A DNA stretch of 64,000 bases, from assembly GCA_024401695.1 (NCBI GenBank), contig JAKSKN010000007.1, positions 1 to 64,000 on the forward strand, written 5' to 3'. Source of the stretch: Bacteroidales bacterium (lineage in GTDB: Bacteria; Bacteroidota; Bacteroidia; Bacteroidales; UBA932). Below, one piece after another: positions 815 through 2,678 of the stretch; position 1 is the stretch's first letter; every line of letters begins with the position of its first letter. The notes under the pieces are model-generated. The model ran no database searches. It was not told the DNA's origin and was given only the letters and a program-made list of their open reading frames with translations. The translations under genes were made by a program, and so were the position numbers.

Positions 815-1078
815 CTATACAATATTGTCTTTTTGAAGGATTGCTACGAACCTTTCCACTTCGCCGCGAAGGACGGCCTCTTCCACATCGTATTCCTTCA
901 GCATAGTACTGACGATGTCGGGAATTTCGTTGCCTTCCTGAATCAGAGTGAACATCCTTACTGCCGTACCGTTGCCGAGGCGCACAATCACTTTCTTCCC
1001 GCTTTCGCCCGGCTGCTTTGACACCGCACATACTCCCGACATAAAGTCCGTTATCTCAAAGTCATATTTCAGTTTCAT
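815..1078 (-). CDS. PqqD-like RiPP recognition element (RRE) protein
   Basis: 87 residues. The sequence fits the PqqD/RRE fold: an N-terminal strand region, a glycine-containing turn (VRLGNGTAVRMF), a helix containing the I-x-D-I-V-S-T-M-L segment, and a C-terminal amphipathic helix (VERFVAILQKDNIV). Such proteins bind the leader of a RiPP precursor and hand it to the radical SAM enzyme. The ATG overlaps the stop of the maturase by 4 nt (1075-1078), which indicates translational coupling and a shared function. It is the last gene of a three-gene operon; no exporter or leader peptidase follows. The assignment rests on size, pattern and context, since PqqD-like proteins are very divergent. Confidence 0.7.
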   Translation of the reverse strand: MKLKYDFEITDFMSGVCAVSKQPGESGKKVIVRLGNGTAVRMFTLIQEGNEIPDIVSTMLKEYDVEEAVLRGEVERFVAILQKDNIV

Positions 1079-2436
1079 TTTCCGCTTCTGTATTTTTCGT
1101 AAGTCCGCACCATCGCAAACTTTATCTGATTAACCTGATTTTCAACCTTTTCAGGAGTGCAGTTTGTGGATTCCCCGCACATCTTCAGGCGGATGCATTG
1201 AGGGTATATCGGGCAGTTGTTGCACAGTTCTATTTCCTCTCGCCTTTCACGGAACTTCGCTACCATTTCCTCGTCAACAACATCAGCGGAATTGACGTGA
1301 GATATGAAATGGTCTTCCGAATAGTGCTCGCACAGGCCGATGTCTCCGGTCGGAGCGATCATCAGGCTCTTCCCACTATCAGCCATACACCAGTTCTGTC
1401 TGGCTTCCTTCGGAAGGGACGCGTCTTTTCCCTTGATGCCCAGATCCGCCATCAAACTTTCCAACTGCTCCAACTTCTCATAAACCTGCCGTCTGCTCTC
1501 ATCGGTCTGCCTTACATTGCCGCTGCCCGCGGATTCCTCAAACAGGACGTGGGCATAACAGCCGAAGTCCTTGCGGCCGCCGTACAGGTCCGAAAGCGAA
1601 CGGACCAGAGCAAAGAGATCATCGGCGTTGTGAAGCCCGAGGTTCAGCCTGACACTTACCTTGATGCCGGCATCCAGAAGCAGTCCGATGTTTCTGACGA
1701 TGCGTCGGTATGGACTGGCGGCGCCATCGTAGATGAAGGCCTTGGATCGGTTGTATATGTCTTCCGTTCCGTCAAGAGTAATCTGGACCTTCTGCAGTTT
1801 CCACAGGTTGACGGCCCTTTTCACGGTATCATCATCAAAGAGATAGCCGTTGCTTGTCATACTTGACTTGAAAGGCACACCGCTTTTCTCCAGTTCGCTG
1901 CATATCAGGTCTATCACCTTGCCGTTGTACAGCGGTTCCCCGCCGAACCAGCGGAGGTTCACCTCTTTATTGTCTTTCGGCAGTTTGGTGTTATTCCGTT
2001 TAATCAGGGAGGCCACCTTCATTGCAGTCTTCTCCGACATCGGAATACGGCTGCGCCCTTTCTCGTAGCAATAGAAGCAGCGGGCATTGCAGTCGGTGGT
2101 GGTCATTATGGTATATGAAGATGTGATATTCTCATCATCGACAGTATCAATCATCTTTCGGAGTGTCCGGTATTGGTCTGCAAACTTCTTCTCATCCAGA
2201 CTCTCAGGAACGACAAACAGATGTTCCCGCAAATATTCATCCTTGGACATATCCTCCTGTCCCTTGCAGGCAAGCACCATCTCGCAGGTCAGAGTTTGGA
2301 AGAGCAGCTGCCCCTCCGGAACCTCCTTCGAGATAACAAAAGACGAGGGATGACAACTCTCATCCCTCACATCTCTTTTGAAATCCATAAGCTCCTGAAA
2401 GGTGGAATCAGGATGTTGGATAATCTCCAGGCGCAT
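1075..2436 (-). CDS. Radical SAM/SPASM peptide maturase
   Basis: 453 residues if translation starts at the ATG at 2436. A longer in-frame start at 2535 would overlap the precursor gene and add a cysteine-rich tail, so it is rejected. The radical SAM cluster motif CNARCFYC (C-x3-C-x2-C) lies at about residues 116-123, followed by the GGEP motif (WFGGEPL) and SNGYL. The C-terminus has a SPASM-type cysteine set: NWCM, GLCEH, LCNNCPIYPQC and MCGESTNC, expected to hold auxiliary 4Fe-4S clusters. Relatives install thioether, C-C or related crosslinks in ribosomally made peptides. The neighbours (six-Cys precursor 16 nt upstream, RRE overlapping downstream) support a peptide substrate. The exact modification cannot be read from sequence. 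Confidence 0.88.
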   Translation of the reverse strand: MRLEIIQHPDSTFQELMDFKRDVRDESCHPSSFVISKEVPEGQLLFQTLTCEMVLACKGQEDMSKDEYLREHLFVVPESLDEKKFADQYRTLRKMIDTVDDENITSSYTIMTTTDCNARCFYCYEKGRSRIPMSEKTAMKVASLIKRNNTKLPKDNKEVNLRWFGGEPLYNGKVIDLICSELEKSGVPFKSSMTSNGYLFDDDTVKRAVNLWKLQKVQITLDGTEDIYNRSKAFIYDGAASPYRRIVRNIGLLLDAGIKVSVRLNLGLHNADDLFALVRSLSDLYGGRKDFGCYAHVLFEESAGSGNVRQTDESRRQVYEKLEQLESLMADLGIKGKDASLPKEARQNWCMADSGKSLMIAPTGDIGLCEHYSEDHFISHVNSADVVDEEMVAKFRERREEIELCNNCPIYPQCIRLKMCGESTNCTPEKVENQVNQIKFAMVRTYEKYRSGK

Positions 2437-2452
2437 TCGAATGTTTTGCTGA

Positions 2453-2620
2453 TTAATATTCAGAACAATAGACGGTGCACTGCACATGTACACACACGTC
2501 CTCAATACAAGGAATGTCCATAGTGCACACGTCACCAGTGCACGGGCTTAGAGCAATAATGGATCTCGACCTGATTTCCATCACCTTTACTTCAGGGGCT
2601 TCAAATGGTTTCTTCTCCAT
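2453..2620 (-). CDS. Six-cysteine RiPP precursor peptide
   Basis: 55 residues, starting at the ATG at 2620. The N-terminal ~24 residues (MEKKPFEAPEVKVMEIRSRS...) look like the common Bacteroidales small-peptide leader with a P-E-V-x-V-x-E-I pattern. The C-terminal half carries six cysteines at positions 27, 32, 38, 43, 48 and 52, spaced C-x4-C-x5-C-x4-C-x4-C-x3-C, with acidic and aliphatic residues between them. The gene sits 16 nt upstream of the radical SAM maturase and behind a TAnnTTTG promoter. Leader plus Cys-rich core plus maturase plus RRE is the classical RiPP gene order. There is no Gly-Gly cleavage site. A longer in-frame start exists at 2812 but lies upstream of the promoter. Confidence 0.75.
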   Translation of the reverse strand: MEKKPFEAPEVKVMEIRSRSIIALSPCTGDVCTMDIPCIEDVCVHVQCTVYCSEY

Positions 2621-2670
2621 AGTATGGATTTTTTGTCTTGTCCCATTGTTTCCTACCGGGTACGACCTTG

Positions 2671-2678
2671 CAAAGGTA
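2671..2678 (-). promoter_or_regulatory. -7 box of the RiPP operon promoter
   Basis: Reads TACCTTTG on the minus strand, matching the Bacteroidales -7 consensus TAnnTTTG. Transcription would begin near 2667, leaving about 45 nt of leader before the precursor ATG at 2620. Confidence 0.6.

Follow-up and report, generated by a model that had tools for sequence, protein, structure and literature searches.

A group of three adjacent genes near the start of contig JAKSKN010000007.1 of a Bacteroidales bacterium raises the question of whether it constitutes a cassette for a ribosomally synthesised and post-translationally modified peptide (RiPP) and, if so, which bonds the product may contain. The analysed stretch, positions 1 to 64,000 of this contig, is called the window below. 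The open reading frames (ORFs) proposed in the first-pass annotation are borne out in coordinates and Cys spacing, all three on the minus strand: a 55-aa precursor peptide with six Cys spaced x4-x5-x4-x4-x3 (2453..2620), a 453-aa radical S-adenosylmethionine (SAM)/SPASM-type peptide maturase (1075..2436; recognised by its ORF, Pfam, NCBIfam, alignment and structural comparison) and an 87-aa PqqD-like protein, a probable discrete RiPP recognition element (RRE; 815..1078). The precursor and maturase genes are separated by 16 nt, and the maturase and PqqD-like genes overlap by 4 nt. The nearest of the best 80 related loci, L012 in a Bacteroidales assembly from horse faeces, has this gene set in identical order, with an 87% identical maturase and a 54% identical peptide, so the arrangement exceeds chance. 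The reading of a precursor with a SPASM-type radical SAM enzyme and a separate RRE protein is supported; the maturase belongs to an unnamed radical SAM/SPASM family, and the cassette is real and recurring. That it makes a row of small ranthipeptide-type rings, through thioethers that join Cys with the third residue after it (+3), appears moderately probable.

Pfam searches indicated the radical SAM nature of the maturase (Radical_SAM PF04055, 47.1 bits, cut-off 29.5), and the SPASM score was slightly under the cut-off (20.8 against 21.5 bits). The CX3CX2C motif of radical SAM enzymes, expected of a ranthipeptide synthase, is present as CNARCFYC (C116, C120 and C123; 2068..2091, minus strand), and none of its three Cys varies across an alignment of 79 sequences, made up of the window and 78 of the 80 loci (the truncated L073 and L043 were omitted). 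A SPASM-like region with seven Cys (350, 369, 405, 408, 414, 420 and 426; 1159..1389, minus strand) was delineated from Cys conservation and the Pfam score; six of these Cys are invariant in the alignment and C426 occurs in at least 90% of the sequences. The auxiliary-cluster spacing of SPASM domains is CX2CX5CX3C, unlike the CX2CX5CX5C found here. Among the families listed in the comparison, the closest structure was that of CteB (score 25.3; 18% identity), with EpeE far lower (16.4). The structural alignment starts with residue 31 of the maturase model paired with CteB residue 1; going by this position, the N-terminal domain (approximately residues 31–100; 2137..2346, minus strand) would be RRE-like. 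The PqqD-like protein itself matched Pfam PqqD (PF05402, 37.3 bits, cut-off 23.4), as expected for an RRE-dependent RiPP.

The best NCBIfam match of the maturase was TIGR04463, with 130 of the 525 bits set as the cut-off; other scores were 96.5 of 600 bits for CefB (NF038107), 82.8 of 340 for PapB (NF047865) and 41.3 of 425 for SCIFF (TIGR03974), and the lower-scoring matches include cyclophane and dynobactin maturases. Each of the 79 maturases in the alignment matched TIGR04463 with E no higher than 1e-10 (best E 2.3e-48), and the CefB, Clo7bot and PapB models fit these maturases better than the dynobactin or cyclophane models. Filing the maturase under PapB, SCIFF, CefB, Clo7bot or TIGR04463 was rejected, because the scores lie far under the cut-offs.

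The related loci come from a search of genome contigs that used an alignment of six maturases, the best 80 of at least 541 confirmed relatives being kept; they belong mainly to Bacteroidales and Clostridia, with a few others. An NCBIfam search with the 55-aa precursor gave no match at E up to 1. The inferred leader of the precursor (residues 1–26, MEKKPFEAPEVKVMEIRSRSIIALSP; 2543..2620, minus strand), bounded by a putative cleavage site, was among the 30 seeds of a leader profile, which were mostly taken from these loci. This profile matched 59 small ORFs, all containing Cys, in 55 of 81 loci (E<0.01); at 37 of the 81 a leader-like ORF ends less than 700 nt upstream of the maturase match and on its strand. 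Many seeds were first spotted by their Cys, and only the 30 non-seed hits serve as a test of the leader–maturase association: 23 of them share the strand of the maturase at a distance of no more than 2.5 kb, a zone that contains 2,117 of all 10,757 small ORFs (p 3e-11), and the ends of 11 fall in the stretch from 600 nt upstream to 60 nt inside the maturase match, as do those of 291 of the 10,757 (p 2e-10). The first-pass annotation had allowed that homologues of the maturase might consistently adjoin a different substrate; this was checked, and the loci point the other way, with a Cys-bearing precursor adjoining the enzyme, as in ranthipeptide systems, in the window (16 nt) and a leader-like small ORF at the 55 loci. 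The six-Cys core, which the same annotation took as the defining trait, was rejected as a family character, given that the Cys count ranges from 1 to 10 over the 59 hits with irregular spacing and is one or two in 27 of them.

At L068, L071, L073 and L069 there is no leader hit, but very Cys-rich small ORFs lie close to the maturase, so the family may have more than one kind of precursor. At the Clostridia-side loci L030, L066, L067, L083 and L091 a large protein, forming a single BLAST cluster, ends right upstream of the precursor; the N-terminus of the one member viewed is secreted-like.

A comparison of the window with L012 shows that the leader is kept while the core varies: the nonsynonymous divergence (dN) is 0.12 for residues 1–26 and 0.94 for residues 27–55, the inferred core (2456..2542, minus strand), with 0.063 for the maturase and 0.045 for the PqqD gene. 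In the window core, Asp stands at +3 of the first three Cys and Tyr at +3 of the last two. Three putative staples can be drawn on the minus strand: Cys27-x2-Asp30 (2531..2542) and Cys32-x2-Asp35 (2516..2527), suggested by motif enrichment and with both Cys and Asp retained at L012, and Cys38-x2-Asp41 (2498..2509), suggested by motif enrichment, where L012 has Cys37 and Phe40. The residues retained at L012 include Asp30, Asp35, Val46 and Tyr51.

The enrichment was measured against shuffled sequences with the Cys positions kept fixed. Asp occupies +3 of 48 of 180 core Cys, compared with 20.9 after shuffling (z 7.1); Tyr is likewise raised there (15, expected 5.5) and Ser depleted (4, expected 20.2). 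The Asp enrichment was found both in Bacteroidota (28 of 100 against 11.5) and in the remaining loci (20 of 80 against 9.2), and it persisted in 37 nonredundant cores of less than 45% identity (36 of 130 against 14.6). In these 37 cores Asp was enriched at +3 alone among offsets 1 to 7, and at +4 there was no enrichment (13 of 124, shuffled 10.9); no Cys of the window precursor has Asp or Glu at +4.

These observations can be combined into a mechanism in which the leader, with its alternating hydrophobic P-E-V-K-V-M-E-I, would be bound by the RRE-like N-terminus of the maturase, by the PqqD-like protein or by both, and the maturase would form several thioethers from core Cys sulfurs to side chains three positions on. 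The main staples would go to Asp (Cys27–Asp30, Cys32–Asp35 and Cys38–Asp41) and further ones perhaps to Tyr (Cys48–Tyr51 and Cys52–Tyr55). A crosslinked product is plausible, because the closest fold is that of CteB and the closest models are those of thioether maturases.

Several observations weigh against this proposal. Only 48 of the 180 core Cys carry the Asp in question, and as 27 of 59 hits have one or two Cys, a row of rings cannot be the general product. In the 37 cores Glu shows no enrichment at +3 (9 against 8.5), though PapB takes both Asp and Glu. Eight extra precursors from outside the set again had Asp at +3 (17 of 53 against 8.3), but they were chosen by eye after the rule had been noticed, and Asp at +2 was also raised in them (15 of 54 against 7.9). 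As regards the leader, 26 of the 81 loci have no match at E<0.01, 7 of the 59 hits are on the strand opposite to the maturase, and the independence of the held-out hits is incomplete, as some are closely related to seeds. The synonymous divergence (dS) of the core from L012, 1.26 over some 18 sites, is also high, as would be expected if the segment had been replaced, and the dN/dS of 0.75 does not demonstrate positive selection. Finally, thioether and C–C bonds are indistinguishable from sequence.

The strongest alternative, though rather unlikely, is that the enzyme is a sactipeptide-like or other crosslinker, making S-to-alpha-carbon, C–C or ether links, with the Asp at +3 serving recognition, a turn or solubility. 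The presence of a single Cys in 9 of the 59 hits, the enrichment of Tyr both at +3 and, in the 37 cores, at +5 (10 against 3.1; a further point against the +3 rule) and the cyclophane and dynobactin maturases among the NCBIfam matches are consistent with such chemistry, whereas the better fit of the CefB, Clo7bot and PapB models, the restriction of Asp enrichment to +3 in the 37 cores and the structural proximity to CteB, a ranthipeptide synthase according to PMC11002830, speak against it. Less probable still is a Cys-rich peptide with a metal- or redox-related activity, whose Cys stay free of crosslinks while the enzyme makes another change, e.g., epimerisation; the number of Cys varies across relatives, and EpeE is well under CteB in the structural comparison. 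It is very improbable that the small ORF is a leader-like mini-protein with an unrelated role that adjoins the maturase by accident: the same genome does have such mini-proteins with no maturase nearby, but the association recurs over two phyla in the non-seed hits, and L012 keeps precursor and enzymes together.

The mini-proteins deserve separate consideration, since the first-pass annotation had suggested, from the leader pattern, that many of them are RiPP precursors. A search of 31 genomes (the window's and 30 relatives) with a precursor profile found 53 places at an E of 0.1 or less. Eight of these are in the window's genome and include the window precursor; the genomes with such places number 16, all from the window's genus. 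Sixteen regions, covering 23 of the 52 other places and including all seven others in the window's own genome, were examined: the maturase and PqqD profiles matched in none of the 16 regions and none of their 202 ORFs of at least 60 aa, the sensitivity of the maturase profile to distant radical SAM families not being established. In 18 of the 22 mini-proteins examined (25 profile hits minus one truncated at the end of a contig and two seemingly spurious), the next gene, within 250 nt on the same strand, has a lipoprotein-like start, compared with 32 of 82 neighbouring gene pairs from these regions (p 0.0005). The suggestion that generic mini-proteins are RiPP precursors on the leader alone was rejected, as their surroundings give it no support, and the P-x-V-x-V-x-E pattern is by itself no marker of a RiPP precursor.

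The mini-proteins of L122–L137 (own and same-genus genomes) have a Y-x-[SA]P-x-V-x-V-x-E-[IV]...C-x-S start, several with a terminal Trp, and stand, e.g., at L122:3246-3371, L123:5818-5952 and L125:10273-10419, directly before or overlapping lipoprotein-like genes. By the look of their sequences these lipoproteins may be fimbrillin-like, although Pfam does not name them so; of ten genes near mini-proteins searched against Pfam, three had hits, none to a fimbrillin model. Mini-protein text, e.g., YESP...EGIVCASG, comes near the leaders of maturase-adjoining precursors such as those of L050 and L040, and this likeness makes a common origin of mini-proteins and precursor leaders possible. Tentatively, one may go further and imagine a ranthipeptide subclass common to gut Bacteroidales and Clostridia, with Cys-to-+3 stapling to Asp and some Tyr, an RRE-like domain of the enzyme's own plus a separate PqqD, and a leader from the same stock as the lipoprotein-preceding mini-proteins, one having been turned into the other.

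A match was found in 5 of 299 genomes of the window's family, its own included, and, at a stricter threshold (E 1e-50), in 1 of 393 genomes of its order, its own. In a tree of 80 maturases (L073 omitted) the window and L012 form a separate long branch whose placement is not supported; the distribution of Bacteroidota and other rows requires four label changes, just one of them imposed by well-supported branches. Two or three full-length maturases are present in 8 of 78 loci, and the sole match of the maturase profile within the window is the cassette maturase. Plasmid carriage was rejected, the plasmid collection searched being without a match at E 1e-30, and a scan of a viral contig collection gave no match. 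A literature search, whose coverage mostly excludes subscription journals, found none describing this cassette among the titles and abstracts listed, and no paper citing the accession TIGR04463.

Neighbouring genes of the relatives were grouped by BLAST clusters, which may miss members (the S24-peptidase-like gene of L010 falls outside the S24 cluster), and contig ends depress the counts, flanks exceeding 4 kb in both directions being present at 44 of the 80 loci. A PqqD-like gene, sought with a profile iterated from three seeds including the window's, is present at 47 of 81 loci. The 44 well-flanked loci have PqqD-like genes in 26 cases, HPr-kinase-like in 14, S24-peptidase-like in eight and an ATP-binding cassette (ABC) exporter in five; for the 19 Bacteroidota among them the numbers are 13, two, zero and one. 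Cassettes with no clustered exporter are thus common in the sample. The HPr-kinase-like label is weak, one member scoring 17.1 of 33.3 bits in Pfam. The Bacteroidales loci L010 (8129-9674), L024, L025, L027, L041 and L047 carry a second PqqD-like and an HPr-kinase-like gene behind the maturase, and L010, the same in content as L025, additionally has the S24-peptidase-like gene; these genes possibly represent a processing set absent from the cassette. In the window's genome there are two further PqqD matches beyond the cassette; the PqqD-domain gene at G000:C13:4270-4464 has no maturase-like neighbour seen by eye.

The first-pass annotation placed the cassette behind a single TAnnTTTG promoter. 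The octamer TACCTTTG is indeed present (2671..2678, minus strand), 50 nt upstream of the precursor ATG; the motif is, however, frequent by chance, with 36 occurrences in the window against 25.6 expected. Going upstream along the minus strand, the first named gene encodes peptide deformylase, its ORF stopping 392 nt before the precursor start codon. The window begins at base 1 of the contig (C65), and the sequence is readable only to that base; in the 814 bases 3' of the cassette the longest ORF lies on the opposite strand (75-647, 190 aa). The absence of an adjoining exporter, also claimed earlier, holds within the DNA readable up to contig base 1.

On present evidence the cassette would function as a ranthipeptide system following a Cys-to-+3 rule. 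Mining of Bacteroidales with BAGEL4 (PMC10352776) likewise revealed radical SAM RiPP clusters and called class I bacteriocins elusive and possibly underreported; most of the nine clusters detailed there carry C39 transporters and GG-motif precursors, whereas the window's genome has no C39 match, in a search positive in 8 of 14 control genomes, and the leader has no Gly-Gly. Thermocellin CteA/CteB (SCIFF), in which CteB forms a Cys–Thr S–C-gamma link (PMC11002830), differs in the low identity to CteB, the low TIGR03974 score and a precursor with no NCBIfam match. CefB (Cys-every-fifth) is also a radical SAM/SPASM maturase, and the Cys spacing in the window averages about five, but its model scores far lower than required and the spacing in relatives is irregular. 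The maturases of TIGR04463 (rSAM_vs_C_rich), the best NCBIfam match of the window maturase and a match for all aligned maturases, are set apart by the distance from the curated cut-off. Freyrasin PapA/PapB has in common a radical SAM enzyme and a precursor bearing Cys and Asp. According to PMC9413430, PapB forms its link between Cys and the beta-carbon of Asp where the motif is Cys-X3-Asp, and in vitro it accepts Cys-Xn-Asp with n from 0 to 6; a review reports that Cys-X2-Asp mostly failed with PapB (PMC8172795). PapA is built on Cys-X3-Asp, whereas the present cores show Asp enrichment at +3 (Cys-X2-Asp) but none at +4, and the PapB cut-off is not reached. An unnamed maturase family of gut anaerobes is thereby outlined, with a recognisable leader and a simple candidate substrate rule, Cys-x2-Asp; if this rule is true, the rings would be one residue smaller than those of freyrasin.
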